From: Thysanoteuthis rhombus
Lineage: Eukaryota > Mollusca > Cephalopoda > Oegopsida > Thysanoteuthidae
Length of the DNA stretch: 64,000 bases
Direction: 5' to 3'
NCBI GenBank assembly: GCA_963457665.1
Contig: OY735227.1
Span: forward strand, 52,232,844-52,296,843
Each line of letters starts with the position of its first letter. Positions within the stretch are counted from its first letter, which is position 1. Under the pieces are notes generated by a model, which saw only the letters and a program-made list of their open reading frames with translations, was not told the DNA's origin and ran no database searches. A program made the translations under genes and the position numbers. Positions 5,201 through 64,000 of the stretch are shown in pieces.

Positions 5201-7505
5201 CTTTGGATAAAATATTGCTCTGTCCTTTCCATCTTTTACACTGAGTAGGTTAAGAGTTGTCGTGCTGGTGGAAAAGGCAGCCTGCAGCCGTGACTGGCAG
5301 GAGAGGGGAAGGAAATGAGTAATCTTAGGATGTCATACTCACCTTTTCCGTGGCAACTGGACAAACTAACCAACTCACGCTCTGTAATCATCAATTAGAT
5401 GCAAGGCCATGTATATGGGGTCACACAATGTTGAATGAACTCACTACATGATGAAATTGGAAGAGCTATTCAAATTCAGGTTTAATTCAATTGTTCTTTG
5501 AGTTCAACTTAGTTAGACACAAGACAACAGTAAGTAAATACCAAGTAATGGTCAGATTCACTGCACGAGCGGATTAATCATTGAGCTACAAAAAAAAAAA
5601 AAAGAGAATAAGGGAAAGAATCCCTGACTCATGTTAGATATGGTGGCGGATTTATGGTCTTGCTGCCTCTGGTAGTGGAGGCCTGGGTCATAATGAAGTA
5701 ATCATAAAATCAAAAGATTACCAAGGGATTTTAGAGCAAAATGTGCAAGCCACTAAGTTCGATTCGAAGATCATCTGTTCTCCAGCACGAAAAAAATAAC
5801 CTCGAAGAAGACATCCAAAACAGATGATAGCAGAAAAGGAAAAGGAAAAGATAAAATGAGCTCACTTTCATTAAAAGTCTTTGGAGAGAGCAGAAATCTG
5901 TTATTGGAGGAAACTATCAAGCAAGCATTCAAGGGGTAGAACAGACTGCATAGGAAGAATGAGACAGACCTCTTGATTGATGCAAGAAGCTCATAAATGG
6001 TAACAAGAAACCTTGCCAAAGCGAGGCTTGTTGCCAAATATTAACGAAAGTGTTTTCCTTACTGCCCAAATCATATTTTTAATTTCTTTTTTTGAATTAC
6101 TTCATATAAGTTGAAAAAAGGAGGTTTTATTTTGTTTTTGCTGTTCTTGTTCAGTTATACTGGAAATCCTATCAAGGATTTGATTGATTATAATTGCAAA
6201 AATATGTCTTGAATGGTTCCTTGCTGAAATCTTGGCGATTGCATCTATTAAGGAATTTTTTCCTCAAATTGACAATCAGTGATTTACTCCAAACACATTT
6301 GGGAATCATTCAAGTTATATGTTAGCGACTATAGTCCATCAAATCCAAAGAGCTTTGGGTTTTTTTTTCCTTTTTTTAAGGGTATGACATTCGTTTTATA
6401 TATGAGCATTATTGCTGAATTATGGTCCCAATTTACTATTCATACAAACGCAGAGAGCAGAAATTTCCTGTTATCAACTCTATGTGCAAATGGTCAGGAC
6501 TCTCTTCAACCATACATAATTTAGCACGCACGATCAAACATATCTATTTACTTAGTATAAAAATACATTAATTACTCGAGTCTTTTTCTTATCTTCATTT
6601 GTCGTGGTTTACCCCCTCCCTCCCTCTGTTTGCCCTTATTATCCATTGTCATTGTCAACTCCAGTTGAAGTGACTTTACACACACTGACATGGTCTAACC
6701 TGCTTCTATCACATGACAAACGTCAGTAGAGAGATGACCTCGTTATCTTTGACGTTATCGTCCTAAACACGTTGAGGAGCCAGTTGCGATGTTAGTTTAA
6801 TACTGGTTTATTTTTGCTATAACAGTTTTGTGAAGAGAGAAAGCGAGAGGGGAAAGAGAGATTGCGTGAGTGTGTCTGATGGAGAGAAAGGAGAGGCATT
6901 GTATGTATAAAGAGGGTTGGGACAGACAGACTGAAACTGATTGTTGTGTACACATAACTTCTCATAGTATGTACATGTATGTATATATGTATGTATAATA
7001 CAAATCTGGAATGCAATATAATAAAATACTATATCCGATGTAAGATGGGTTTATTCCATATTGTGCATAATACATTCATCATTAAACATAAAGTTGATTT
7101 AGAGAAGTGCATAAAATATAATGGCGTAAGGATTCGCTCCACGAACACGTTTCTATTTCTGCCCTGCTTGGGCTTCTTCGGGCGAATGATTCTGTTTATT
7201 TTAGATTCCTATTTATGATTTTTTTCCTTGGGGGGGGGGGGCTATTATTCTAAGTGGTAGGATCTTTCTTTTATTCCACTTATATAGAGTTTTTATACAT
7301 TTTTGTTCAGTGTACGGTCATTGCTTATGTTTTTTACAGCTGAACCAACATAAAACACCAACAAGGCCATTACCTAGTTTAACATCATTAAGAAGAAAAT
7401 ACTCGTGCTTTTGTACATTTCAACATCATGGACCTCTAACCTTCTATATCCAAAGGAATACTTGAGGGTCTATGAAATTAGCAAAAATCCATGTGGATAT
7501 TAACA
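2264..7505. other. Long unassigned stretch
   Basis: No gene or named repeat could be supported. A frame at 3490-3756 (+) contains the phrase HRNTHNHNFNF, which faintly recalls C-terminal tails of GIY-YIG-bearing retroelement proteins, but no second motif supports it. Mononucleotide runs occur at 3064-3073, 3092-3101 and 5588-5602, and a short (TA)n at 7512-7534. Reverse-strand 5530-5590 has a TAGCTCAATGATTA phrase like a tRNA A box, without a convincing B box. Confidence 0.4.
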
Positions 7506-7545: not shown

Positions 7546-7899
7546 ATAATTAAACACTGTAGACAGACAGTACCATTCCATTCAAGAACAATGGACTAAA
7601 AAATGATGTTTCTATTGGTTGTCTCGATTCAGCTGAGATGTTGGACCTAATCAGTTTGTATATTTTACATAACCTCACTAACCTAACTAGATTTGAAAAA
7701 ATATATGATTGTACCGGGACGACGTCCTACTGATTGTAGAAAACAGTAATGTGCAAAAATGTGAAAAAATTTAAAATTCTGTAATTACTTACATCAACAC
7801 AAGTTTTCACCAACCAAAAAAAAACCATTGAAAAGATCCCCAAATCAACAAAAACTAAACTAATACATGATTCCTCAAATGAAACATTATTCAACAATG

Positions 7900-18685: not shown

Positions 18686-21404
18686 CAGAGCGCAAATCTC
18701 TTCTCATATCATATTGTCATCACTCGAAATGTGTGACTAGTATTTCCTTCATTTTACAGTAGCTTTTTATGTTGAATACCGACCATTAAAGTAGTGTGAA
18801 GTAGGAATAAAGAAGTAGCTTCAGATGAAACTCAAACTTGCATCCCATATCCCCGGGTTTATCTTCCGCAGATGGCTAATTTAGCCTTGTAAGCCTCTTG
18901 CGAGACGAAGTATATATCTACGGCCATATTGCCATTTCCTTGCTGGGAAAAATTGGCAACGCCAAAACGACTCCACCTTGAGGAACACGGACGTTCTTTT
19001 AACTATAAGCAAAGCCTAGTAAGCTTAGTAAGAATGGAGTTATTGATACCAAAGAATTAAGTATAGTAGAAAAATATCAAATAAGTTTATTGATGCTAAA
19101 AATTTACAAGTTGGAAACACTAAAACATGGCATGTTTAAAATGAAGACTAACAAGAGTAACATTGAATAGGACACTTGTTCACTCTACATTTAGAAATGT
19201 CAAGATTGTACTCATCGAGAAAACATTCAGGAGAAAATTTATCCTGCGCATCAAATTTTCTTGAGAAGAAACTATTGCGCAGAACTTGTGGAAAATATGG
19301 ATTTACCTTAATTGCAAACCGAATTTCAAGTGGAAATTCCCGATCAGTAGTTTGTCGGAACACTTTCCATGGATATAACAGTAGGAGAGTACCGAACTGG
19401 CACCATTACGGCGCTGAGATAGTGGTGGGAGTGTGGAAAAAAGCTCATCACCCACAAGTCCATGCAATTGTTCTGTATTCTATCGTGTTGGATGCGACTG
19501 ATGAGAGGTCTCAGTCCAGATGTGCGTGTAAGACTCGGTCTGTTTGATCATAAGACCTACAAACCCATTTTGAAATGCATATATTGTACTGCCTGACTTG
19601 GTTGCTTACCTTATTGAAACGGTCAGTAAACTCGTCTGACAAATGTAGTTAGTCCGATAGTCACTGCGTACACAAGGGTTGCCAGCAGCTTCCCCTAAAA
19701 ACAAGATTTCAAATAAAGCCAAATTCTATACAAAGAACTCAATAAGGCAGTTTTAGATTAGATATTTTACCAATTTATCAACAGTTGTAACTTCCGATTT
19801 TATTACTATTTATAGAGAGCTTCATAAATTAAGACGAATTTGTTAAAATTTTGAACTGTTTTGAGTCTTCAGTTTGCTGCACCTTCTTGAATATCTCTTA
19901 TCAATTCCTTTTTTACTCTCATGTTGCAAAAGTACGCTTGTTTAGTGAGAAGCCTATCACTAGTAATTTCTGCTTTTAAGTTGTTAGTGTTCTTTGTTTA
20001 ACTGTTCATTCGAAAAAAAAATTCTCTGTTCACAAGCCGAATAGTTGTCAAGCTAGTCATAAAATCTGATATTGATTGATATTTGTATGTAATTTACTTT
20101 ATACCATTATCCTGGAATGTGTATGTATACAAGAATGTGGTGCGAGTCCTTTGACAAAATCAAAGTTTAATCAATTCACATATGACTAGCAACGTAATAG
20201 CACGACAACCAAGACCACACAACGGCTACTTATTACTTGCTGAGCTACCAAATTTGGCACTATTTTCTTTCAGATGGATTTGAGATAAAAATTTGAGATT
20301 CAAGTAATAAAAAACCTAACGGAAAAAAACTTGTATTTCATTGAATTCTAAAATACCGCCAGCCCCAGTTCCAGAAATACAGCCAGGTATCGAAAAATCT
20401 AAATATTGGTTTTAAAACGTAGCACTGTCAACCTTGGCGCGCACCACTACTGCTTTATTGCAAACTAAACCAAACTTAGAAAAAAACTTATCATCAGAGA
20501 ACTTCGTGGTTAAGATAGTTGCATTTTTCCCATTTGCAACAGTGGTTTGGTAGTGGCCGAACTGAGTCAAAAAGCAAGGATTTCGAGTGCTGATTTTCAA
20601 GGTAAGTGGATCCTCTTTACTTGTAAGACTTACAGCGCCATAATTGTTCCACTTCCTATTTCTCCATTACCTTCACTATTGATCTAGACTTTGAAGCTCA
20701 GTAAATATATTTCTGCCTGTTCATGTCATAATATTATTTACCTTTTCATCACAATTACCTGGCTGGGTGAACTCAGTGACACCACTCAACAGTTGCATAA
20801 CACCTGATATTTCTTTACCTTAGCAGTTGGCTAATTTACTTCCCTGACCAACATCCCACTTCATAAGCAGTCACCATTCTCCTTTCTCTTCCTCCTCCTC
20901 CTCTTTCTTCTCATCCTCCTCCTCCTCCTTCTTCTTCTCATCCTCTTCCTTCTTCTTATTGTTATTATTATTTCCCACACACTATGCATACCGGTTCTTC
21001 AGTTTGTAAAGTGACAAGCCTTCCCCAAAGGCCCCAGTCAGAACACTCTTCTTAAAAATGTGAGCTGTTCCAAGGAAGATAGATTTTTGAAGAACGTGTC
21101 TTGATGTTCAACTGATCGATATAGTGTGATAACTTTTGGTGGGTCGTGCCCAATGCCTCGATTAAAACTGGCACGACTGTTGTTGCTGTGTCTTGCTTTG
21201 ATATCAGTTTATATAAGTCACTAGCTGGGTCTCAACTAGAGACCAATGACTGGCAACCTTGTAATTTTGACTGTCCAAGCCTTTGAACAGGTGGGCAGGG
21301 TTTTTAGATGTACAGACGATATAAAGTGATATATGCCAGGTGAACATTCACACTGACAAAAATTTTTTCTTCAAATTCTTTGATTATAATTTCTGATCAG
21401 TTTG
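18686..21404. other. Long unassigned stretch
   Basis: Overlapping open frames at 19148-19363 (-) and 19176-19547 (+, 123 codons) carry no recognisable motif and are not called. A pyrimidine-rich TCCTCC/TTC tract lies at 20880-20965. Nothing else is supported. Confidence 0.4.
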
Positions 21405-21492: not shown

Positions 21493-21503
21493 CATTATTA
21501 TTA
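21405..21503. repeat. (ATT)n array, left edge of LINE cluster I
   Basis: About 32 ATT units with one ATC interruption. It directly abuts the 3' end of the RLE LINE copy to its right; the LINE sense strand reads TAA. Confidence 0.97.
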
Positions 21504-22210
21504 GTTGCCTGGTGGTAACCGCTGGAGTTTGAGTGACAGCAAGTCTCCTCAAGTCTCCAGCCCTCCTCTCCTAGTACTCATAGGTCGCAGTAATTCTTCA
21601 ATTTACAGTTTCACACCGGTTGCCCAGTGGTTATCGCTGAAGGCTGAGTGACAATAAGTCTCCTCAGGTCTTCAGCTAACGTCTCCTCTCTCTTTCACCT
21701 ATTATGTCAGGGCTAAAATTCGTTGCAGTACTTATATCTCTAGCACCTTCCTCAGTATCCGTGCAGTTCCCAGTAGTGCTGTGGTCTGTACGGTCTCAAT
21801 CCTTCCCCTAATCCCGATCTCCTCCAGTCTCTCCCTCAGCGTTTTGGGGACAGTTCCTAGTGCGCCCACTATGACCGGTACTACCCTGGTTTTCATGTTC
21901 CACATCTTCCTTAACTCTCTTGCTAGGTCCTGGTATTTTTCCCGTTTTTCACTCTCCTTCTTTTTTACTCTATGGTCTGCAGGTACAGCAACGTCTACTA
22001 TTTGGCAGGCCTTCCTTTTTTTTGTCTACTATTACCAAGTCTGGTCTTCTTGCCTGGATGAGGTGGTCAGTTTGGATGTCAAAGTCCCAGAGTAGTTTGT
22101 GGTTGTCATTCTCCAAAACTGCCTCTGGCTTGTGCTGATACCACTTTTCCACATGGTTGAATCCCATTTGTTTGCTTAGTTCCCAATGTATCATCGTTGC
22201 TACTCAATCG

Positions 22211-22212
<2 letters not shown>
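21504..22212 (-). pseudogene. RLE-type LINE (R4/Dong-like) family L1, 5'-truncated copy A
   Basis: A retrotransposon 3' part read on the minus strand. It runs from IHWELSKQMGFNHVEKWYQH through WDFDIQTDHLIQARRPDLVI, the PD-type core of a restriction-like endonuclease, to the C-terminal TALLGTARIL segment, then an untranslated region with two similar ~115 bp blocks. It is nearly identical to copy D at 53466-54728. A run of 8 T at 22016-22023 against 7 in copy D shifts the frame after IVDKK, so the nuclease is broken. The zinc finger and reverse transcriptase are missing through 5' truncation at the (ATT)n array. Confidence 0.85.
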
Positions 22213-22279
<67 letters not shown>

Positions 22280-22280
22280 C
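22213..22280. repeat. (ATT)n array between LINE copies A and B
   Basis: About 22 perfect ATT units, bounded on the left by the 5' truncation of copy A and on the right by the 3' end of copy B. Confidence 0.97.
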
Positions 22281-23055
22281 TGTTCTTTTCAATGTATTGC
22301 CGAGACATTACCAACAACTAAGGGCAAAAAAAGGTTGAAAAAATATACATTTTTTCTTATGTATGAATCAGTCTTATTCTGTGTGTTGCATTCTTTCGTG
22401 TATTGCTGTTATTGTTTTTTTCATTGCAGTTTACATTAGTATGTAACAGATGATAGTGATCTCCTCGATATACAGGATGTGCCTGCACACTATTCTCTCG
22501 ATTTCGTGAGACAAGGGTCACCACGGATATGGGCGAGATATTTCCAGTGCCTTTCTTGATCATCACAATAACGGGGACAAGTGCCACATCTCTTGTATTC
22601 TGATTTCAAAGTCCTTGTACTTGCCTAGTTTCAAAAGTTCTTTTACTGCTATATTTCGATCAGAAAGGAGCACTCATATCAATTAAAAGGTAAGCTCTTT
22701 TATGGTGGATCATTGATTACTATATTGGGTCTTTTTGCTTTGATGGTCATATCGATGTTTATTACAATGTCCCATAGTATCGTAACACTCTGTCACTGAG
22801 TCAGTGGGACTGGTTGATCTTCTTACCAGTTGTTGTCTGTAGGCACTCGGTAGTTCTTGTAGATTTTCCAATGTTGATATTGGCCCACTCTGTCATGTCT
22901 GGACTTGCATCCTGTAGGAGTTAAAGCAGATCAGCCGGACACAAGGTTGTGCATTGTTTCTACATGCTGGGCACAGTAGTGGCATTTGGGGTAGGCACCA
23001 TTTCCTATGATATTTCCTTAGAAGATCGAGGGTGCAAGCTTTGGTCTTGACTGAC
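22281..23055 (-). pseudogene. RLE-type LINE, second family L2, decayed copy B
   Basis: Minus-strand reading gives a zinc-finger phrase (KCHYCAQHVETMHNLVSG) and SRHDRVGQYQHWKIYKNY. It then gives TILWDIVINIDMTIKAKRP, NIVIND (nuclease core), RNIAVKELLKLGKYKDFEIR and VALVPVIVMIKKGTGN, split by stops and shifts. The order zinc finger, then HDRV..HW, then RPD nuclease, then KYKDLE, then PVIVGA is that of R4-like elements, but the sequence is clearly different from family L1. The 3' untranslated part is 22281-22440. Both ends lie on (ATT)n arrays. Coding capacity is lost. Confidence 0.75.
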
Positions 23056-23106: not shown

Positions 23107-23340
23107 CTATATTTTCACACCAGAAGACTGGTGGTTATGGCTGAAGGTTGATAGCAACTCCCCTCAAGTCTCTGACCCTCATCTTAACACTCTAAAAGTC
23201 TGCAGTTTGCAGTTTCACAGTTTTGTTGGTAATCACTTGGGGCTGAATGACAGTAAGTCTCTTCAAATCTCCAGCCCGAGTCTCATCGTCTTCACATATC
23301 ACAGCAGTGCTTTGGTTTGTACGGTCTTGACCTTCCCAAT
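23107..23340 (-). pseudogene. RLE-type LINE family L1, copy C (3' end only)
   Basis: Matches the 3' untranslated region of copies A, D and E (two blocks beginning CACACCAG and TTTCACAG, with AAGTCTCCTCAAGTCTC-like cores). It then jumps, by an internal deletion of roughly 90 bp, to the coding end (GGTTTGTACGGTCTTGACC). It is more diverged than A, D and E. The element ends at unrelated AT-rich DNA on the right. Confidence 0.7.
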
Positions 23341-28866: not shown

Positions 28867-29294
28867 TACATAAGGTACTCCCCCATTAGTTTTCATGGAC
28901 TATAAAGTTTCAACATTCATACCTTTTGCACTTGGTGAGAAGACCTGATCTGCATGTGTATGTTGGTGGGATTCCCCTAGCATTTTTTTTTCAATGAATC
29001 AAATTTATCAATTACATTCTCTTAAAATAATCAATGAACTTTTATCTGTCATGCAATCGATGAAAAAAAAAATTTTCATTTGAAACGTAAAAAAACAATA
29101 TAAAAAATATATACAGAATATTGTCTTCACCTTTGCTGTTTTTAACACAATGTTCCGATTAATATGCTATCTGACTATCCTGTATAGTCAAAAATTCTGA
29201 AGGTAAGTATTCCGTTGTTCCAGGTATGTTTGGACTAATGAATATGGTGAGGATTGTGCAGAAAACTTCGACTCGATCATATAAACAAATATTA
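28867..29294. other. Unassigned DNA
   Basis: No supported feature; the right half may be unreadably decayed LINE sequence upstream of the recognised part. Confidence 0.4.
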
Positions 29295-29700
29295 GGAGCG
29301 CAAATATAAGTACTAGAAGAGGAAGAGTAAAATACTCTAGGATTTTGAGATCCAGACCAACCATGCCATCCGAGCAAGAAGACCTGCATCTGAGAGTCGT
29401 AAGCGTAGAAAAAAAGTATGCTACATAATGGATGTGCCAGCAGACCACAGGAGGAAGACAAAATAAATCGAAAGACGAGAACTCTTTCAGAACTTCGCCC
29501 GGTAGATGAAGAAGCTGTGAAACATAAAAGATCATGGACATGGCTACACAAAGAACACCAGGAGAGAGAAACATAAACCCTCATCGTTAAACACCCAACG
29601 TTAAAGCAAAGATCGACAGAACCCAGAAAAATAGCAAATGCCGCCTCAGTAGAGAAAGGAATGAGACGGTATACCACATATCCAGCTAATGAAGCTAGAC
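29295..29700 (+). pseudogene. RLE-type LINE family L1, permuted copy G
   Basis: Plus-strand reading first gives DFEIQTNHAIRARRP, IMDVPADHRRKTK and ELFQNFAR.MKKL.NIK (the nuclease and its downstream part). Then, joined near 29528, it gives KRSWTWLHKEHQERET and IDRTQKNSKCRLSRERNET, VYHISS (the part that normally lies before the nuclease, including a damaged zinc finger). Compared with copy D the two blocks are in swapped order. Stops and shifts are frequent, so nothing functional is encoded. The minus-strand 182-codon frame over this region is a shadow. Confidence 0.7.
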
Positions 29701-29945
29701 AGAACATGGCATGTGTTAGAAAAGTGTGGGGAAGTTGGGACAGGACAAAGCATAGCGCTGCTGTTATTTATGAGGATGCTGAGAAGGGGTCCAAGACTTA
29801 AGGGGACTTACTTCAACGATGACCACCAGACATCTGACGAGAAAGGGCAAACCACAGCACTGTTGTGGATTGTAGAGATGCTGAGAGGAAGGCTTGATGT
29901 CATCCAGCGATGACCACCAGTCATTTTGTGCGAACGTGCAAACGC

Positions 29946-30070: not shown

Positions 30071-30074
30071 TATT

Positions 30075-30300
30075 TTTAAAACATGAGAGGTTAGAGCCTT
30101 CGGAACGGTCCCCAAAAACCTAGTAAAAAGATTCCAGGAATTTGGAATACGGGGAAAGACCGGAACTATCTAGACGACGACACCACTGAAGTTTGTCAAA
30201 ATACATGTGAAAGTCTTGGAGTATTGAGGAGTCTTGCAGCCACTTGATCTCCTGTGACAACCACTTGCCGCTGCTGGTATGGAATCTCAAATAATAATGA
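30075..30300 (+). pseudogene. RLE-type LINE 3' end, copy H
   Basis: Reads FGTVPKNLVKRFQEFGIRGK, then TTTPLKFVKIHVKVLEY and a short 3' tail ending in AATAATAATGATGA. It corresponds to ALGTVPKTLRERLEEIGIRG through RILRRVLEI of copy D. The element is 5'-truncated at the (TAA)n array. Confidence 0.7.
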
Positions 30301-38554: not shown

Positions 38555-39419
38555 TTTTTACTTTGGAGACGGGAGCAAGTATAGCGCAAAAACTAACAAA
38601 ATGTAGCTTGATGCAGGTATCTCATACAAAAGCTCAAGGTTACTTATACATATATTCCACTCCCGAGCATTTTAAGCCGTATCAATCGCGCACTTTAAAA
38701 AGCACAGAGACTTTATGGACAAACCTTGTAGTATCACTTCGTTTTCGTTTTGGTATTTGTGCTGAGGCTATGACTTTCGAATACTTTTGTATTCATTCAT
38801 TTACCCCAGTCAACAAAGTTGAAAGGTATATGTATTCGGTCACGTTTGTTCGTATGTTCGTTCATCTGTCCACATGATATCCCAGAAAGAGCTTGATGTA
38901 TTTCTATGAAATTTTGTGGAAGTTTGGTCAATGAAGCGAAAAAGAGATGGTGGGATTTCGGGGCTCATACAAGAATTCTTCCCCTGATTGGGGGATATTT
39001 TTCATTAAAAAAATACATTTTACGTTCGCATGACAGTCCACACAACATCGCAAATAGCTATCAATCAATTCATATGAAGGGTAGACAATAAGCTACAATG
39101 AATTTTGGAGCGGATCCATGCACAATTATCTCCCCTGTGTCATGTGATAGTTTCTATCGAGTGACTGACCAGATCTCTTTGTTTGTTTTTTTTCTTTTTT
39201 TGGTATTCAAAAAAAATCATGAGTGTATGTTTGGAACTATACTGGAAGAATTTTCATCAATTTAGCTTAATTCACCACCACCATTGCTTAATTAAAGAGG
39301 GGAAAAGAAACATATATGGGTGGCTTTCATTCATAATTTTCCTTTGAATGATGTCTGATTTAATTTGGAACAAAAAGAGAAGAAAGCAAAACTCGTACAT
39401 ATAAGTACATATAGAAATC
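38555..39419. other. Unassigned DNA
   Basis: An open frame at 38563-38877 (+, 104 codons) has no motif I recognise and is not called. No other feature. Confidence 0.4.
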
Positions 39420-40170
39420 TGATAATCTGGCAAGAATTTGAACTTTATTTTGAAATCTGGTGACCTCTGGAAAACTTCATACTTAATATCAGAATAAATC
39501 TGGTAACCTCTAGGAGATTTGTGACTTAATTTAGGAATAAATCTAGTAAACTTTAGAAGATTCGAAATTTAATTCTGGAATAAATCTGGTACCATCTGAA
39601 ATATTCTAGACTTGACATCGGACCAAATTTGGTAAGCTCAGGAAGATTCTAGACTTTATTTTTGAATAAATATAGTAACCCTCTGGAATATTTATGATTT
39701 GATTTCGGAAAAAAAAAATCTAGTTACCTCTGGGATACTTATTTTGGATTAAATCTGATGACAACAAGGAGATTTTAGACTTCATTTCGGAATAAATCTG
39801 GTGACAGCTGGGAGATTTAAGACTTTATTTTGTAATGAATCTGGTGACTTCTGAAATATTTTAGATCTAACCTTGGAATAAATCTAGTGGCATTGCGAAG
39901 TTTTAAGCCTTGATCTCAGAATGAATGTTGACCTCTGGAAGAGACTTGATTCTTGAAAAAATCTGCAGACTTCTGCAAGACTTTATTTCGGAATAAATCT
40001 GAGATTTGTAAGATTTCAGACCTTATTTTGAAATATATCTGGTGATAATTTGAAGATTTTGAACCTAATATCGGAATAAATTTGGTTATCACTGTAAGAT
40101 TATAAACTCTATTTCGAAATAAATCTGGCGACCTCTGGAAAATTTTAGACCTTATTCTTATATCATCTAG
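39420..40170. repeat. 43 bp minisatellite
   Basis: A unit of the type AATAAATCTGGTAACCTCTG + ~23 bases ending in TTTAGACTTAATTTCGG recurs. The AAATCT core starts at 39453, 39496, 39539, 39582, 39625 and 39668, an exact 43 bp step. The step then becomes irregular but remains recognisable to about 40160, giving roughly 16-17 units. No open frame is kept. Confidence 0.88.
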
Positions 40171-41869: not shown

Positions 41870-42945
41870 TCATCACTCGGAAACTTACCCATCTATTCAA
41901 CGTGCCTCAGAGTTATGTCTCAGATGATTGGGATACTGCTATCATGATACTACTAAATAAACCCAAAAGCTCTAAACAACAAAAGATCAATGAGTGTATT
42001 AAACTGCATCTATAAACTTTTTACCCAAGTGACCACCAAGAAAAAAACAAAACGCGAGCTGAAAACCAACCATGGGAATAGGCTGACTTCAACAAAATCA
42101 ATTCGACCACTGACCATTTCCAGTCAGTAAATCAACAGAGAGAGAAAGCAGCAGAATACAAAATACCACATACTTTACCATCTGTTGTTCAAGACGGCCT
42201 TGCACTCAGTGGAAATTATCAGTTATTGTTGCTATTATACAAGACGTAGACACCCGTATATATCAGTCTGGTAACATATCTACCGACACAGCGGTTCATT
42301 TGTCAGTCTTCATAGAGACTCTGGGCTATTTCAGCTCGAAAAATGGGTAAGGCAAGATGAAACCAGCTCACTCAATCTCTTCAGAGCTCATCTTGAGATG
42401 ATCTTCCGGAATTTAGACTGGGCAAATGAAGGAATCAGAATAGACGATGAATACCAGAGTAACCTCAGATGTTAACATCATCCTTTTTGCTTCATGATCT
42501 CCGAATAAGGTAAGACAGACTAGATGAAGAAAGCAAGGGATTCGATTCAATAAAACAAATTTTATGTGTAGCAAGGACACAACGTTCAAAATCGAAAACG
42601 CAGTGCTAAAGAAAACTACATCTACCTAAGGCAATCTCCATGAAATCATCGGAAGAAAAAATCAAGATAAGAATCACTCTAGGTTGGCAAACTTTCGGTA
42701 GAGTAAGCTCGACTTTTCAAAAATCAAAAAATTCCATTAGTTCCAAAAAGAAGCGTCACCAGCCACTGTATCCTCCCAGTAGAGACAAATGGAGCTGGAA
42801 CATGGAACCTAACCAAAAGATTGGCCCTCAAACTGAGAACCACGCAACATGCATGCGAGAGTATCATTCTCAAAATCACATGAAGATGTCACAAAATAGA
42901 ACATTATAACAGAAAATAAACAGTGATCAGATATATCATAGAAAA
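41870..42945 (+). pseudogene. RTE-like LINE, reverse transcriptase region (longest copy)
   Basis: Read through several frameshifts on the plus strand: DDWDTAIMILLNKPKSSKQQ (RT fingers), RAENQPWE.ADFNKINSTTDHFQ and REKAAEYKIP (matching '..EQAGFR.G.STTDHL...EKA.EY.IPL'). Then VSLHRDSGLFQLEKWVRQDE, LNLFRAHLEMIFRNLDWANE, RIDDEYQSNLRC, KIENAVLKK, RITLGWQTFGRVSSTFQKSK and SRDKWSWNMEPNQK follow. The motif order is that of RTE-type LINEs whose C-terminus contains a KWQWAGHVAR phrase. The catalytic YADD-like box is lost. The copy ends near 42945, where SINE-like DNA is inserted, and resumes at 43371. Confidence 0.75.
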
Positions 42946-43370
42946 CATTAGAACATACCTGGCTCCTACTTCTATTCCGGCTGAAGATAATTACTACAAG
43001 TTTTCTATTGTATAGATGATAAACAAAAAAATACGAAAAATATTTTTTTAGAATAAATGAATTCATTTATTTGAATTTAATAAGTATTTGCATATCTATA
43101 AGATACATTTTCGTAGATATGTAAGACTGGTCAATTCGGCTCAATCGGTAAAAGAGCAGGTTATCATTCGCTTGGTCGTGATTTCAAATTACAGAAGTGC
43201 AATGATAATTTCATAAATATATTTATTTATTAGAATGAAATAAATTCTTGTGCATTTAGCTCAATCATGTCAATCAAGCTCACTTGGTAAGAAATATGAC
43301 TACCAATCAGTTGGTCGTTATTTCTTGTAATTCTTGTTATGGTGGAAAAATAGACAACTCCAGGTTTAGA
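42946..43370 (+). mobile_element. Insertion with two tRNA-like SINE units inside the RTE remnant
   Basis: Unit 1 (43120-43215): CGGCTCAATCGGTAAAAGAG with GTGATTTCAAATTACAG, the same family as 9790-9900. Unit 2 (about 43275-43345): AAGCTCACTTGGTAAGAAAT with GTTGGTCGTTATTTCTTG, more decayed. The LINE reading on the left stops at CATAGAAAACATTAG and continues on the right with AAACAAATCTCAAATG. Confidence 0.55.
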
Positions 43371-43640
43371 CTCGAATTAAACAAATCTCAAATGCTAATG
43401 AGCTGGTCATGTTGCAAGAATGTTAGCCAACAGCTGAACATCACGACTCACAAAGTTGAGCCCTGGAGATCATATGCGAAACGGTGTCCAACAAAAAAAA
43501 ATAGTGTGACAAGTTCAGAAAGTATTGACTTTGCAAAGGCCATGATGGCAAATCTTGAGGAATGTCCATGTCCAATGACGGACGCTGAAAGGCTGCTGCT
43601 GATAACTTTGAAGGTAGTGTCACTGATTTATATACCAACT
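43371..43640 (+). pseudogene. RTE-like LINE, 3' end of the interrupted copy
   Basis: GAGCTGGTCATGTTGCAAGA (the 'WAGHVAR' site), then AGATCATATGCGAAACGGTG, AGAAAGTATTGACTTTG, and GAATGTCCATGTCC with CGGACGCTGAAAGGCTGCTG. These are in the same order as 48860-49090 and 62040-62140. The 163-codon frame over 43284-43775 is in a different phase from the ancestral one and starts inside the inserted SINE, so it is not a gene. Confidence 0.7.
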
Positions 43641-48629: not shown

Positions 48630-49095
48630 AAAACTCATTGATTTTGATAGAGAAGCAACCAATGCATTCTCCAGATAGTGACCTATGGAGCTGAAATATG
48701 GAGCGTAAACAAAAGATTGACTTTCAAACTATGAACTATGCAATGTGTACATGAGGGAATCATGCTCAGCATCTCATAAAGAGATTAAAAAATAGAGCAG
48801 TACATTTGAGGAAAATATCAGAGATATCATAGAATTCATTAGAAAACACAAATGACAATGGGCTGGTCATGTTGCAGGAATAGATAAACGATGGACGTTG
48901 CGACTCATAACGTGGATCCCAAGAGATCATATGCAAAATAGTGACTGGCAAAATATAAGATGGCGTAACAAACTAGGCAAGGTCAGGAAGTATTGGCTCT
49001 GCGATGCTCATGATAGAGAGGCCTGGGGAATGTCCAACGACGCCCAAAGACTGTTGCTAATGATGATGACCTTGAGAGTTGTTTTCATCACTTGA
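48630..49095 (+). pseudogene. RTE-like LINE, 5'-truncated copy
   Basis: Plus strand reads VTYGAEIWSVNKRLTFKL, MQCVHEGIMLSIS, then KTQMTMGWSC, the shifted 'WQWAGHVAR' site GGGCTGGTCATGTTGCAGGA. It continues through TLRLITWIPRDHMQNSDWQN, IRWRNKLGKVRKYWLCDAHD and REAWGMSNDAQRLLLMMMT to the GATGATGA-type 3' end. This is the best-preserved C-terminal region of the family in the window, but with stops. Confidence 0.75.
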
Positions 49096-49504: not shown

Positions 49505-49690
49505 GGCGGTTATAGTTATGGATAGGGTTCGGATTAGGGTTAGGGTTAGGATTTGAGTTATGGTTAGGGCTAGTGGTTGGTTTGGATTAGTATTAGGGTT
49601 AGGATTAGGATTATGGTTAGTGTTACGGTGTGGATTATGGTCAGTGGTGGGGTTAGGGTGAGGATTAGGGTTATGGTTATGGTACGTTAG
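49505..49690 (+). repeat. Degenerate interstitial telomere-like (TTAGGG)n
   Basis: About 30 hexamer-like units on the plus strand. Exact TTAGGG is frequent (for example near 49535-49550), mixed with TTATGG, TTAGGA, TTAGTG and GTGGTT variants. The minus-strand NPNPN open frame is a by-product. Confidence 0.9.
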
Positions 49691-53304: not shown

Positions 53305-53327
53305 GGGGGGTAATCATGATGATGATA

Positions 53328-53365
<38 letters not shown>

Positions 53366-53430
53366 CGTCGTCGTTGTCGTTGTCGTCGTCGTCGTCGTCG
53401 TCGTCATCATCATCATCATCATCATTATTA

Positions 53431-53465
<35 letters not shown>
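53305..53465. repeat. Serial trinucleotide array (GAT)n-(CGT)n-(CAT)n-(ATT)n
   Basis: A G10 run, then GAT units (53316-53364), a CGT/TCG block (53365-53405), CAT/ATC units (53405-53425) and ATT units to 53464. Each block differs from the next by one base per unit. It ends at the 3' end of LINE copy D. Confidence 0.95.
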
Positions 53466-53708
53466 TGGAATCTCACACCAGTTGCCTAGTGGTAACCGCT
53501 CGAGTTTGAGTGACAACAAGTCTCCTCAAGTCTCCAGCCCTCCTCTCCTAGTACTCATAGGTCGCAGTAATTCTGCGATTTACAGTTTCACACCGGTTGC
53601 CCAGTGGTTATCGCTGAAGGCTGAGTGACAATAAGTCTCCTCAGGTCTTCAGTTAACGTCTCCTCTCTCTTTCGCATATCATGACAGAGCTACGATTCGT
53701 TGCAGTAC
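53466..53708 (-). other. 3' untranslated region of LINE copy D with internal duplication
   Basis: Two blocks of about 115 bp, beginning TCACACCAGTTGCCTAGTGG (53474) and TCACACCGGTTGCCCAGTGG (53588), both containing AAGTCTCCTCA(A/G)GTC(T)TCAG. The same duplicated layout is present in copies A, C and E, so it belongs to the element. Confidence 0.8.
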
Positions 53709-54725
53709 TTATATCTCTAGAACCCTCCTCAGTATCCGTGCAGTTCCCAGTAGTGCTGTGGTCTGTACGGTCTCTATCCTTCCCCTAATCCCGATCTCCT
53801 CCAGTCTCTCCCTCAGCGTTTTTGGGACAGTTCCTAGTGCGCCCACTATGACCGGTACTACCCTGGTTTTCATGTTCCACATTTTCTTTAACTCCCTTGC
53901 TAAGTCCTGGTATTTTTCCCTTTTTTCACCCTCCTTCTTTTTTACTCTATGGTCTGCAGGCACAGCCACGTCTACTATTTGGTAGGCCTTCCTTTTTTTG
54001 TCTACTATTACTAAGTCCGGTCTTCTTGCCTGGATGAGGTGGTCAGTTTGGATGTCAAAGTCCCAGAGTAGTTTGTGGTTGTCATTCTCCAAAACTGCCT
54101 CTGGCTTGTGCTGATACCACTTTTCCACATGGTTGAATCCCATTTGTTTGCTTAGTTCCCAGTGTATCATCGTTGCTACTCTATCGTGTCTATGCTTATA
54201 CTCCTTCTGGGCGAGTTGACTACATTCACTAGTTATGTGGTTTACTGTCTCATCTCTTTCACCGCACATGCGGCATTTGCTGTTTGTCTGTGTTCTGTCG
54301 ATTTTTGTTTTTATGTAGTTTGTCCTTATGCTTTTGTTTTGGGCTGCCATGATGAGCGATTCTGTTTCTCTCTTAAGGTTCCCCTTTCGTAACCACGTCC
54401 ATGATTTCTCGTCTGCTACATTTTGTATCTGTCTTTTAAACTCGCCGTACAGTTTTTTCCCTTCCCATCTTTCTTTTCTTGTTTGCTGTACTGTTCCATT
54501 ATTTTCTACTTTATTGCTTGTTGCACTATCTCTCGCGCTCTTTATGATTTCTTCACTATTTGTTTGCACATATCTTTCTAGGACTACTTTAGCTCTCTGT
54601 ACACAATCTTCTATGCTGATGAGCCCCCTGCCACCTTCTTTTCTCTTAACGTATAGTCTATCTGTATCATCTCCAGGGTGTAATGCTTTATGCATCGTCA
54701 TAAGTTTCCTTGTTCGCCTATCCAT
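53709..54725 (-). CDS. RLE-type LINE (R4/Dong-like) ORF, C-terminal 338 codons, copy D
   Basis: The best-preserved frame in the window, open from the 5' truncation at 54728 to TAA at 53709. Residues 1-45 are the end of the reverse transcriptase thumb (RLYVKRKEGGRGLISIEDCV). Residues 151-168 form a C-x2-C-x8-H-x4-C zinc finger. Residues 220-260 carry the nuclease core WDFDIQTDHL, ARRPDLVIVD and VDVAVPADHR. KYQDLARELKKMWNMKTRVV and ALGTVPKTLRERLEEIGIRG follow, ending RILRRVLEI. In R4-clade LINEs these parts bind and cut the DNA target for target-primed reverse transcription. A complete element would need the reverse transcriptase in front (about 1,000 residues in all), so this copy is a 5'-truncated insertion and probably inert. 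The absence of stops suggests it is young. The first Met is not a true start. Confidence 0.88.
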   Translation of the reverse strand: MDRRTRKLMTMHKALHPGDDTDRLYVKRKEGGRGLISIEDCVQRAKVVLERYVQTNSEEIIKSARDSATSNKVENNGTVQQTRKERWEGKKLYGEFKRQIQNVADEKSWTWLRKGNLKRETESLIMAAQNKSIRTNYIKTKIDRTQTNSKCRMCGERDETVNHITSECSQLAQKEYKHRHDRVATMIHWELSKQMGFNHVEKWYQHKPEAVLENDNHKLLWDFDIQTDHLIQARRPDLVIVDKKRKAYQIVDVAVPADHRVKKKEGEKREKYQDLARELKKMWNMKTRVVPVIVGALGTVPKTLRERLEEIGIRGRIETVQTTALLGTARILRRVLEI

Positions 54726-54726
54726 T

Positions 54727-54731
54727 GATTA

Positions 54732-54793
<62 letters not shown>
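54727..54793. repeat. (ATT)n array between LINE copies D and E
   Basis: About 21 ATT units, directly abutting the truncation of copy D and the 3' end of copy E. Confidence 0.97.
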
Positions 54794-55384
54794 TGCAATC
54801 TCACACCAGTTGCCTGGTGGTAACCGCTCGAGTTTGAGTGACAGCAAGTCTCCTCAAGTCTCCAGCCCTCCTCTCCTAGTACTCAGAGGTCGCAGCAATA
54901 CTGCAGTTTACAGTTTCACACCGGTTGCCCAGTGGTTATCGCTGAAGGCTGAGTGACAATAAGTCTCCTCAGGTCTTCAGTCAGCATCTCTTCTCTCTTT
55001 CGCCTATCATGTCAGTGCTACAATTTGCGTTTCCGCTTTCATTTCCCTTCCTCTGTTGGGTCACTATTGACAGTTAACGTTGCAGTCCTTGTATTTCTAG
55101 CACTTTCCTCAGTATCCGTGCAGTTCCCAGTAGTGCTGTGGTCAGTACAGTCTCAATCCTCCCCCTAATCCAGATCTCCTCCAGTCTCACCCTCAGTGTT
55201 TTGGGGACAGTTCCTAGTGTGCCCACTATGACCGGTACTACCCTGGCTTTCATGTTCCACATCTTCCTCGATTCTCTTGCTAGGTCCTGGTATTTTTCCC
55301 GTTTTTCACTCTCCTTCCTCTTTACTCTATGGTCTGCAGGTGCAGCCACGTCTACTTTTTGGCAGGTCTTCCTCTTCTTGTCTA
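54794..55384 (-). pseudogene. RLE-type LINE family L1, 5'-truncated copy E
   Basis: The 3' untranslated region (54797-55073) again holds the two related blocks, plus about 70 bp (55012-55080) not present in copy D. The frame 55074-55349 reads VAAPADHRVKRKESEKREKY, QDLARESRKMWNMKARVVPV, IVGTLGTVPK and ARILRKVLEI and stays open. Its stop lies 5 codons further than in copy D because TAA is CAA here. Upstream it begins within IVDKK at the (ATT)n array, so the zinc finger and most of the nuclease are missing. Confidence 0.85.
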
Positions 55385-55385
55385 C

Positions 55386-55441
<56 letters not shown>
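55385..55441. repeat. (ATT)n array between LINE copies E and F
   Basis: About 19 perfect ATT units. Confidence 0.97.
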
Positions 55442-55442
<1 letters not shown>

Positions 55443-56424
55443 TTAGATTGACGTCCTGTAGTATTCATTGCTCATCGAGTTTTTGGTCAGAAACTCAAAA
55501 CTGGCAACGATATTATGACTTGGTGGGTACAGCATTTTTTTAGTAATATATACAAAAGTGGGGTCAAAACAAGACGAAAACAACAGATATTGTTACAGTC
55601 TCAAGTTACCACATTTTTGTGATCTCAATTTCCAAGTCTTTGTACATAGTTTTTCAAACTCTTTAACACATATTTTTCTGTCTGAAGGAATGGTGATATC
55701 TAATAATAAACATCCGTTTTCTTTTCTGTCATTAATGATTATGTCTCGGCGGTTGACTTTGATGGTTCGATCCATGTGTACTAGAAAATCCAATTTTATC
55801 GCCATATTCTATGTTTCAGTTACAGGATCAGGATGGTGTTCATACCAATGTAGTGTATGTGGTGCGCTATAGTGCTTATAGACTATCCAGTAGATGTACT
55901 GAACGATTCTATCATGTCTATCAAGGGTTTTTTTTTCCAAGTGTTCTTCTAACATTGATAGTCCATGTCGCTTGGCTGTTGTTTCTACATTTTGCAACCT
56001 TAGTTGGAGCTTGTGTACGGGTCATGTTTACTTCAACTCGAAATGCGATTCCCTCGCCACAGAATGAAGCGTATGGTTTTCCAACATCCAGCCATTACTT
56101 GCCTTCAGGTAAGCATGTAGACCTATGGTTGTAGTTTTGTACGACAATTTTAACGGGACAATACATCAATCGCTTACTTTTCTTGAGAGCTAGAGTGGAT
56201 TTACGTCTGCTTTTGGGCGGTGCATTCGGTTGTTGGTGAGAAATTTCCTTGTTTTGCGTCCAAATCTGCATGTCACATATGTTCCAGTTAATAATGTAAT
56301 TATTGCACTGTACTATTGGTATTGCCAAGGTATTCATGGCTTGGATGCGGTTCTTAGAGTTGAACTGTTTTAGGGATAGCTTGGACCCTTTTCTAGTACT
56401 CCTCTTTATTCTGTCTTTCATGAA
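55442..56424 (-). pseudogene. RLE-type LINE family L2, decayed copy F
   Basis: Minus strand, from right to left: KDRIKRSTRKGSKLSLKQF, NRIQAMNTLAIPIVQCNNYI and NWNICDMQIWTQNKEI (RT thumb region). Then, after shifts, LDRHDRIVQYIYWIVYKHYS, WYEHHPDPVTET, DRTIKVNRRDIIINDRKENG, LLLDITIPSDRKICVKEFEK and KTWKLRSQKC. This is the IDVSIP-D-R-V..KE-EK type of R4-like element, clearly distinct from family L1 and like copy B. The nuclease has RRDII where RPDI is expected, and the proline change would weaken the core. Several shifts show a dead copy. Both ends lie on ATT-rich arrays. Confidence 0.75.
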
Positions 56425-56472
56425 TTATTATTATTATTACTACCACTATTATTATTATCATCATAATTATTT
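56425..56472. repeat. Imperfect ATT/ACT/ATC array, right edge of LINE cluster II
   Basis: ATT units with ACT, CCACT and ATC interruptions. Confidence 0.85.
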
Positions 56473-56978
56473 TCAAGTTGCACATTATCCGGATTTTTTC
56501 GCATTTTTCAAGTTGAGGCATTTTAAGAGTACCTTGATTCAATACCTTTGTTAGAATTCACCGTTTCAGCTTCTTTGCAAAGGGACATTATGCGGATGAT
56601 GTAAACGGTATGCATGTTGATGTAAATGATATCCTTGAGTTCGAATGAGTACGTTGCTTTCTGATGGTGTTTGTGTATAGTTTACAAAAGATTACAGCCA
56701 AAAAGTGTTTGGATAGAAATGGTTAGAATATCATCCTTTCATTGTATAAACTACAGCCGAGCGACAAGGACTATCGATGTTAAAAGAACACTGGGAACTG
56801 AAACCTCCTCATCGCCATTACCCACATCGCTCCTAAGATGCTGACGTAGATAATACCAAAACCAATCATATACCAACCATGGTAGGCAGGGGTTCAATCC
56901 ACCAAGTCATACCAAAAATTTTAAAAATGGTACTCAATGCCGTCCGGCTAAACACGAGATCCACTTCCCAATAGTGAG
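56473..56978. other. Unassigned DNA left of the 5S-like sequence
   Basis: Nothing firm. GGGGTTCAATCCACC at 56888-56902 has the form of a tRNA T-arm/B box, and could belong to a composite SINE with the 5S-like part that follows. Confidence 0.4.
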
Positions 56979-57279: not shown

Positions 57280-57490
57280 TAAAATCAGATAATATTAGCA
57301 ACAGCAGCCATTCAACAAATTACTTTTTTGGATCCACGTTGTGAGTTGTGGTGTCCAGCAGACATTCTTGCAGCATGACCAGTCCATTGCCATTTGATTT
57401 TTCCTAATGGGTTCTATGATATCTCTGACTCCTGATTTAACTGTGGATAGGGTTCCAAGAATCGATTGCAGTGTTAGAATGGTAACCATT
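57280..57490 (-). pseudogene. RTE-like LINE, internally deleted 3' copy
   Basis: Minus strand: LQSILGTLSTVKSGVRDIIE, PIRKNQMAMDWSC (shifted 'WQWAGHVAR'), PQLTTWIQK, then directly the 3' end AATGGCTGCTGTTGCTAATA. The RWRDEL..KYW segment found in the 48.9 kb copy is missing. Confidence 0.65.
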
Positions 57491-58721: not shown

Positions 58722-58817
58722 TCATAGTGGCTCGAAACAGCGACGCCCGTCTTACCACGAGAATTGCTTGAAAGGCGCTTTATCAACAAGATAACTTGGT
58801 TACAACCAACTGAGCTC
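58722..58817 (-). repeat. 96 bp repeat, copy 1 (tRNA-like motifs on minus strand)
   Basis: Identical over 96 bases to 59912-60007, in the same orientation, with unrelated flanks. On the minus strand it starts GAGCTCAGTTGGTTGTAACC, like a tRNA D-arm/A box, and ends GTTTCGAGCCACTATGA, like a T-arm/B box. The arms do not pair well, so a true tRNA is unlikely; a SINE head is possible. Confidence 0.85.
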
Positions 58818-59911: not shown

Positions 59912-60007
59912 TCATAGTGGCTCGAAACAGCGACGCCCGTCTTACCACGAGAATTGCTTGAAAGGCGCTTTATCAACAAGATAACTTGGTTACAACCAAC
60001 TGAGCTC
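59912..60007 (-). repeat. 96 bp repeat, copy 2
   Basis: Perfect match to 58722-58817, start to start 1,190 bp. The flanks differ on both sides from the first base on. Confidence 0.85.
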
Positions 60008-61909: not shown

Positions 61910-62150
61910 GAGTGAAGAATCGTACGACGTGCACTAGAAGGAATCATGCTCAACGTCATGTACAGAGATCACAAGACAACTAAGTATATTACAGAAAAAC
62001 AGGATTCAGAGATAACAGAGAACCCATTAAAAACTCAAATGGCAATGGGCTGGTCATGTTGCTAGAATGTCAGACGACCATAGGACGTAACGACTTACAG
62101 CGTTAATCCCCAGAGATCATATGCGAAACTGTGGCCGGTAGAACATTTCT
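61910..62150 (+). pseudogene. RTE-like LINE fragment
   Basis: GAAGGAATCATGCTCAACGT, AGAGATCACAAGACAACTAA, AAACTCAAATGGCAATGGGC and TGGTCATGTTGCTAGAATGT, then AGAGATCATATGCGAAACTG, in the same order as in the 48.6-49.1 kb copy. The fragment ends abruptly near GTGGCCGGTAGA without the family's 3' tail. Confidence 0.68.
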
Positions 62151-63799: not shown

Positions 63800-63829
63800 C
63801 CACAACATAATGATGACTGGGTAATAATG

Positions 63830-64000
63830 TTGGGTATAATTCTCCCCGTTGCACTTTGTATGGTTCTCAGTCTGAGGGTCAATCGTTTGGTTAGGTTCCA
63901 TGTTTCAACTCAATAAGTGATTATCGGGAGGATGCATGGGTTGTAGACCTAATGGGGCCTTCTTATTTATTAAGATGGAGCAGGTTCTACTAAACGCTAG
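63830..64000 (-). pseudogene. RTE-like LINE fragment running off the window
   Basis: Minus strand from the window end: KKAPLGLQPMHPPDNHLLS and, shifted, the family's YNQCI-P-ITYG region, then NMEPNQTIDPQTENHTKC and a decayed following part. It is homologous to 42740-42840 and to minus-strand 28470-28560. Its 5' part lies beyond position 64000. Confidence 0.65.

Follow-up and report, generated by a model that had tools for sequence, protein, structure and literature searches.

Same-facing LINE copies among TAA arrays in Thysanoteuthis rhombus: a probable queue of (TAA)n-targeting, Dong/R4-like retrotransposons

Introduction

A 64000-nucleotide stretch of the genome of the cephalopod Thysanoteuthis rhombus (GenBank assembly GCA_963457665.1, contig OY735227.1, positions 52,232,844 to 52,296,843 of the forward strand; "the window" hereafter, within which all coordinates are given) contains several groups of 5'-truncated long interspersed nuclear elements (LINEs), i.e., retrotransposons without long terminal repeats (non-LTR), lying among arrays of TAA repeats. 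One of these groups, cluster II (53404-56472), is very probably a queue of mostly dead copies of (TAA)n-targeting, Dong/R4-like non-LTR elements of the type that carries a restriction-like endonuclease (RLE).

Dong/R4 LINEs, such as those of Bombyx and Darwinula, likewise combine a reverse transcriptase (RT) with a C-terminal RLE and a (TAA)n target (PMC3774820, PMC7998251), the latter being the target given for Dong in most insects, molluscs and cnidarians (PMC7998251); the Bombyx Dong 5' junction has been studied behind seven sense-strand TAA repeats (PMC3774820), and a Dong element with a full open reading frame (ORF) has been reported for Octopus bimaculoides (PMC9115989). Insertion of such LINEs into TAA repeats is, therefore, an already known phenomenon. 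Dong/R4 elements are further described as having an N-terminal Myb/SANT-like domain without zinc fingers (PMC7998251), and Bombyx Dong as having a hepatitis delta virus (HDV)-like ribozyme at its 5' end (PMC3774820). R2 shares the RLE and the zinc knuckle with the elements described here, and its protein recognises a structure of two stems and a junction within the 3' untranslated region (UTR; PMC10499050); its target, however, is 28S rDNA, whereas here it is TAA microsatellites, and no rRNA match was found in the window. MoTeR/FoTeR elements are similar in having an RLE and a constant orientation within a tandem repeat, truncated copies outnumbering full ones in FoTeR (PMC12857005), but differ in their telomeric target and fungal hosts.

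What looks new in the present genome is the scale, a duplicated 3'-UTR module with covariation, micro-copies, a mild 5' microhomology and young copies sitting beside older tails. The duplicated module goes unmentioned for Dong in the portions of PMC3774820 and PMC7998251 at hand, and a literature survey by title and beginning of the abstract returned neither such a module nor head-to-tail queues for such elements, which leaves their absence from the literature unproven.

Results

Layout of Cluster II

All three LINE copies of cluster II, designated D, E and F, lie on the minus strand, each being truncated at its 5' end, with ATT arrays (TAA on the sense strand) between them, so that the plus-strand order is compound array, D, array, E, array, F and degenerate array (Table 1). 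The first-pass annotation, made from the letters of the window, had described the three copies as same-facing, 5'-truncated and flanked by ATT arrays, and direct reading and Tandem Repeats Finder (TRF) bear it out. Because D, E and F face one way, each array between two copies serves as 5' flank to one and as 3' flank to the other; the 5' flank that counts as separate evidence is therefore that of F, where the array is short and degenerate.

Copy E has about 52 extra bases directly after its ORF end (within 54794-55092), which A and D are without. An inverted 80-bp piece of the L2 lineage (56741-56820, plus strand; nhmmer E 2e-8), devoid of a TAA flank, lies some 0.3 kb upstream of the 5' end of F and is possibly the remnant of an inversion.

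Table 1. Positions of the LINE copies, their modules and the adjoining arrays in the window
Feature	Position	Strand	Description	Basis
Compound microsatellite	53316..53466	-	3' side of D; ATT (sense TAA) adjoins D; outward TCA, TCG, ATG units	TRF, reading
Copy D (L1)	53467..54727	-	5'-truncated LINE: C-terminal ORF and 3' UTR	
D open frame	53709..54728	-	339 aa; CCHC knuckle and restriction-like endonuclease (RHD...RPDLVIVDKK...VDV)	
D proximal unit	53583..53654	-	3'-UTR two-hairpin module	
D terminal unit	53468..53539	-	3'-UTR two-hairpin module	
TAA array (sense)	54728..54794	-	E 3' end / D 5' end	
Copy E (L1)	54795..55385	-	5' truncation within endonuclease domain	
E proximal unit	54911..54982	-	3'-UTR module	
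E terminal unit	54796..54867	-	3'-UTR module	
TAA array (sense)	55386..55441	-	F 3' end / E 5' end	
Copy F (L2 lineage)	55442..56425	-	decayed fragment of endonuclease domain	
Degenerate TAA array	56424..56470	-	short; 5' side of F	
Copy A (L1), cluster I	21503..22215	-	0.958 identical to D	
Copy B (L2 lineage), cluster I	22280..23054	-		
Copy C, cluster I	23107..23340	-	old L1-type 3' end, both modules kept	
Fossil copy I (tentative)	20973..21219	-	C-terminal coding remnant, then GGAAATAATAATAAC	tblastn E 0.015
G1/G2	29249..29945	+	old, rearranged L1-type; 3' modules present	
Copy H	30073..30290	+	old L1-type 3' end	

The TAA Rule

Sense-strand TAA was found at the 3' end of all eight window copies considered (A, B, C, D, E, F, G2 and H), including G2 and H of the plus-strand group at about 29.3-30.3 kb, for which the same had been noted in the first-pass annotation. 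It also adjoins the 5' end in six of the eight (A, B, D, E, F, H), even though TAA arrays of at least four perfect units account for 518 of the 64000 window bases (0.8%); the binomial probability of six in eight 5' ends lying within 5 bp of such an array is 2.5e-11 if the ends are treated as independent.

The rule was then examined across the genome to which the window belongs (2.73 Gb in 514 contigs). There, 40 young copies, ranks 2-41 of 119 scored places from 72104 protein-search candidates, were taken together with flanks around the match of 4.8 kb (upstream) and 0.8 kb (downstream), D being excluded (118 others). In 39 of them a TAA run begins no more than 21 nt from the 3' end, and in 32 one lies within 16 nt of the 5' junction (a run of at least 9 nt in 30), whereas TTA was seen at none of the 40 5' junctions and ATT at neither junction, the only 3'-side TTA runs lying at least 50 nt out, behind TAA (L021, L037). 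A 15-base word from the L1 3' end, sought with no protein selection, occurs at 7755 forward and 7975 reverse genome sites; AATAATAAT follows it at a distance of 1-6 nt at 6178 of the forward sites, and ATTATTATT at 12. The reverse-strand counts (11267 TAA, 11 ATT) were left unused, as some places were counted twice. The earlier proposal that orientation is locked to the TAA strand, against which equal numbers of TAA and ATT copies would have spoken, is thus clearly borne out in the L1 family, with 6178 against 12.

Could the TAA simply be the element's own tail? In that case there would be no target preference, and a (TAA)n 3' tail, like that of the Drosophila I factor, whose element ends in TAA repeats (PMC3747384), would fix the orientation trivially. 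TAA does stand 3' of nearly every copy, and among the 40 young copies the length of the perfect 3' array differs (0 to 141 bp, median 27), as that of a tail might. A tail would, however, leave TAA at the 3' end, whereas 32 of the 40 5' junctions have it as well, and all five window pairs considered (A-B, B-C, D-E, E-F and G2-H, with G1-G2 and I omitted) are separated by TAA-type repeats only. The endonuclease, moreover, is R2-like, while that of the I factor is of the apurinic/apyrimidinic type, and we know of no TAA target for the latter element. Taken together, this makes an explanation by tails alone very improbable.

Seven of the eight TAA arrays of at least 30 bp in the window adjoin LINE copies. 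The sole TAA-type array of that length with no LINE copy detected beside it is a 52-bp array of ATT with a TAC array behind it (851-926). The long perfect TAA runs seen at the young loci include one of 141 bp on the 3' side of L035 and one of 206 bp on the 5' side of L042.

Same-Facing Neighbours and Their Ages

When a model of the 3' module (R1, see below) was run on the 40 loci with default filters, 151 matches were obtained at E 0.01, of which 150 were aligned. Modules outside the anchor copies numbered 71, at 27 of the 40 loci, and none was on the opposite strand, which likewise supports the orientation rule; one of the 71 (L023) is probably the anchor's own terminal unit, as only one unit was counted as the anchor's own. 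Among the 100 3'-end-word places listed in the first 20.8 Mb of contig C1, all 20 adjacent pairs less than 5 kb apart were on the same strand, 20 such close pairs being observed versus 2.4 expected under uniform placement, while of the 79 pairs farther apart 41 shared a strand.

At 17 loci BLAST could measure a neighbour lying no more than 150 nt upstream, and in every one of these the neighbour was more diverged from the reference than the young copy (70.5-97.1% versus 96.1-100% identity). This comparison is a rough one, with neighbour identities taken over 63 to 1900 columns and those of the young copies over 230, and it is biased, its direction being unproven, as the young anchors had been chosen as best-scoring matches. 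With that bias in mind, the serial insertion proposed in the first-pass annotation is supported.

The most serious competitor is template jumping, in which head-to-tail strings would be made in one event by an RT passing from one RNA to the 3' end of another, something that the R2 RT does in vitro at low levels (PMC10499050). Three loci (L020, L021, L031), in which a 3' end is joined to the interior of the next copy nearly without TAA, would fit such an origin, as would the upstream neighbours at L038, L041 and L046, whose identity to the young reference reaches 95.7-97.1%. The other 14 of the 17 neighbours, however, fall below 95%, seven of them below 84%, next to young copies of 96-100%, and these age gaps count against single-event strings in most of the 17 cases; within cluster II, E differs from D by 9%, and F, a decayed copy, belongs to another lineage. 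Jumping as the general source of the queues is, thus, improbable, albeit less so than the tail explanation, and jumping between RNAs of different subfamilies could still have taken place.

Cluster I and the plus-strand group consist of elements of the same kind as cluster II. Copies A, D and E belong to a single family (identity 0.91-0.96; A-D over 712 bases, D-E 0.907 over 539 aligned bases), to which C, G and H are more diverged relatives, and dN/dS values of 0.09 for D-A (158 codons) and 0.23 for D-E (100 codons) point to purifying selection. B and F gave no BLASTN match to each other, being linked by nhmmer (E 1.1e-18) and by 42% amino acid identity over 64 residues, and represent one old lineage rather than one family; among the 40 of 1064 candidates that were scored for F, the 39 best-scored other places are 77-83% identical over some 300-350 bases. 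The claim that both clusters hold the same two families is therefore only partly right, B and F being distant relatives. Nor does cluster II repeat the arrangement of cluster I, the sense-strand order being C-B-A plus the tentative fossil I in the latter and F-E-D in the former.

Were cluster II a segmental duplicate of cluster I, the 95.8% identity of A and D would be readily understood. Yet the 5' ends of the two differ, the 3' end of A is missing its final 15-18 nt, A being an insertion separate from D, and the unit order is not the same; the homology, furthermore, ends at the arrays, and BLASTN showed no shared unique flanks. This explanation was rejected as extremely improbable. An old-to-young age gradient along the queue was also considered and dropped: cluster II agrees with it, but cluster I departs from it once fossil I, which lies 3' of A, is included. 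In the plus-strand group, the G1 and G2 pieces (29249-29700) are in the wrong order relative to D, the endonuclease part preceding the upstream part, which indicates either a rearranged old copy or two fused copies.

Encoded Protein and Class

The frame of D begins behind the RT domain and contains a CCHC knuckle and an R2-like endonuclease. Its closest PDB match is R2 (phmmer E 9.2e-4), with C-x2-C-x8-H-x4-C aligned at the same spacing as in R2, and it carries the R-P-D...D motif, its RHD and R-x-D agreeing with the REL motif quoted in PMC12857005. The zf-RVT match in D was below the Pfam cutoff, and a scripted CCHC pattern with x7 spacing gave no match. While the window copies are truncated behind the RT domain, RVT_1 was found in long open frames of sister copies, namely L042 (1236 aa, E 6.5e-28) and L010 (E 3.5e-28), the former frame also having R2 as its best PDB match (E 5.7e-24). 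Judging by the RT domain and the C-terminal knuckle and endonuclease, the family is one of RLE-bearing non-LTR retrotransposons, and the RT, the RLE and the sense-strand TAA target liken L1 to the Dong/R4 type, a provisional placement by shared features.

No Pfam Myb match was obtained at E 1 in the long sister frames; the published Myb/SANT-like match needed profile comparison (PMC7998251). Rfam gave no match at gathering score in the whole window, rRNA included, none at E 1 in 53404-56472, and in seven loci only CrcZ matches far below the gathering score, probably caused by simple repeats. An AlphaFold model of D built without an alignment was unusable (mean pLDDT 36), Pfam returned nothing at E 0.01 for ten other window ORFs, and no related locus was confirmed in viral and genome contig collections.

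A Duplicated Two-Hairpin Module in the 3' UTR

L1 copies carry two tandem 3'-UTR units, 115 nt apart in D and E, each consisting of a long and a short hairpin, the short one having a GCAA loop in A, D and E. In a MAFFT alignment of eight units, not fitted to any model, 92.3% of the cells were paired versus 29-37% when the structure was slid; four pairs had changed on both sides. Of 500 shuffles, 2 attained the covariation score, while the number of pair types was not unusual (497/500 shuffles). In 95 distinct rows fitted to the model, 91.3% were paired (33-44% when slid), with 13 pairs and 126 cells doubly changed, values matched by no shuffle, versus 11-30 such cells in slid structures; much of this double change merely separates proximal from terminal units, so that a few events are counted often.

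Among the eight sequences tested for fold stability, the five units of A, D and E had z values of -2.8 to -4.8, while the two C units and the H unit were not stable alone (-0.2 to -1.3). The R1 model recovered three held-out plus-strand units (E 5.7e-5 to 4.1e-4), and all 11 of its window matches at E 1 fell within LINE copies, with nothing elsewhere; the L2 copies B and F gave no match to it. As the antisense of the module looked A-box-like, a tRNA scan was run, and it found none. By analogy with R2, the module is likely the signal by which the RT recognises L1 RNA.

5' Junctions and Micro-Copies

The 5' junctions were studied in 35 copies (the 40 less L010, L042, L014, L027 and L047), 28 of them with usable junctions. 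Mean microhomology was 1.43 nt against 0.86 under a null of randomly drawn positions and phases (98 of 20000 resamples gave a mean as high), and at least 3 nt was found at 9 of the 28 junctions versus 6.7% expected. Three exact truncation sites (3375, 2773 and 3104 of the reference) are shared by two loci each.

Between the TAA arrays of the 40 loci there are also seven micro-copies comprising only the last ~20-60 nt of the element, four of which begin within the terminal hairpin, in either its loop or its 3' arm; few as these cases are, they suggest that synthesis stops there. Terminal motifs in the 40 loci number 64 in sense and none in antisense, and the loop-start micro-copy form was found genome-wide in 119 rows behind AATAATAAT (some places twice) and in none behind ATTATTATT.

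Discussion

A queue such as cluster II is probably built as follows. The encoded endonuclease would cut a TAA array on one strand, and this nick would prime cDNA synthesis on the element RNA, the 3' end of which would be recognised beside UAA repeats, hence the single orientation; a single orientation and TAA junctions are what is observed. Recognition of the RNA by the RT would probably run through the duplicated module of the L1 3' UTR, for which covariation was found. Synthesis would often end early and the cDNA end be rejoined to the array, giving 5'-truncated copies, and this rejoining mildly prefers TAA-like microhomology. The TAA left 3' of each insertion would stay a target, so that in repeated rounds later copies would accumulate head to tail; neighbours that face the same way and differ in age are indeed present.

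Several results weigh against this account. C and G1 have no TAA at their 5' side, and eight of the 40 young copies have none at the 5' junction: L014, L027 and L047 extend upstream into sequence common to them and absent from the reference, L020, L021, L025 and L031 are fused to or near the 3' part of another copy, and L030 has an AAG run. At the 3' side, L029 has CAT/CAG repeats instead of TAA, and under strict patterns some 1565 of the 7755 forward 3'-end words have neither array behind them. The young copies, as said, came from the top of a scored protein search, and in the L2 lineage the TAA rule was seen only in window copies B and F. As for the module, doubly changed pairs did not exceed shuffles in the eight-unit alignment (112/500), and in the 95 rows there were 13 versus 7-14 in slid structures. 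Finally, the HDV-like ribozyme of Dong was not found here, no Rfam HDV-type match being obtained at E 1 in seven loci whose true 5' ends are not established.

A more far-reaching reading, which we consider possible but rather doubtful, is that the family farms its own target: the TAA tract laid or renewed at the 3' end of one copy (a tract that possibly pre-existed) would be favoured by the next, a large part of the TAA microsatellites of the genome would be LINE-made, the L1 RNA would carry two tandem recognition modules, and aborts at the terminal hairpin would leave the micro-copies. Counted in its favour were the seven of eight longer window arrays that adjoin copies, the same-facing neighbours at 27 of 40 young copies, and the 119 micro-copy rows (some places twice) behind TAA versus none behind ATT. 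If tails are targets, part of the microsatellite load of such genomes would be explained. A genome with thousands of TAA-targeting LINE copies, some with long open frames, in any case makes target choice, orientation and 5' truncation measurable at scale, and the duplicated 3'-UTR module offers a concrete candidate RNA signal for an element other than R2.

Other Repeats in the Window

Several blocks of divergent 43-bp tandem repeats occupy 39415-40159, and about 28 degenerate copies of the telomere-like hexamer GTTAGG lie at 49515-49683. Mutually similar stretches of ~80-220 bp, a size like that of short interspersed nuclear elements, occur on both strands at 42760-42953, 43383-43568, 48656-49036, 57327-57438, 61929-62146 and 63827-63936, and a 96-bp direct repeat is present in two 100% identical copies 1.2 kb apart (58722-58817 and 59912-60007).

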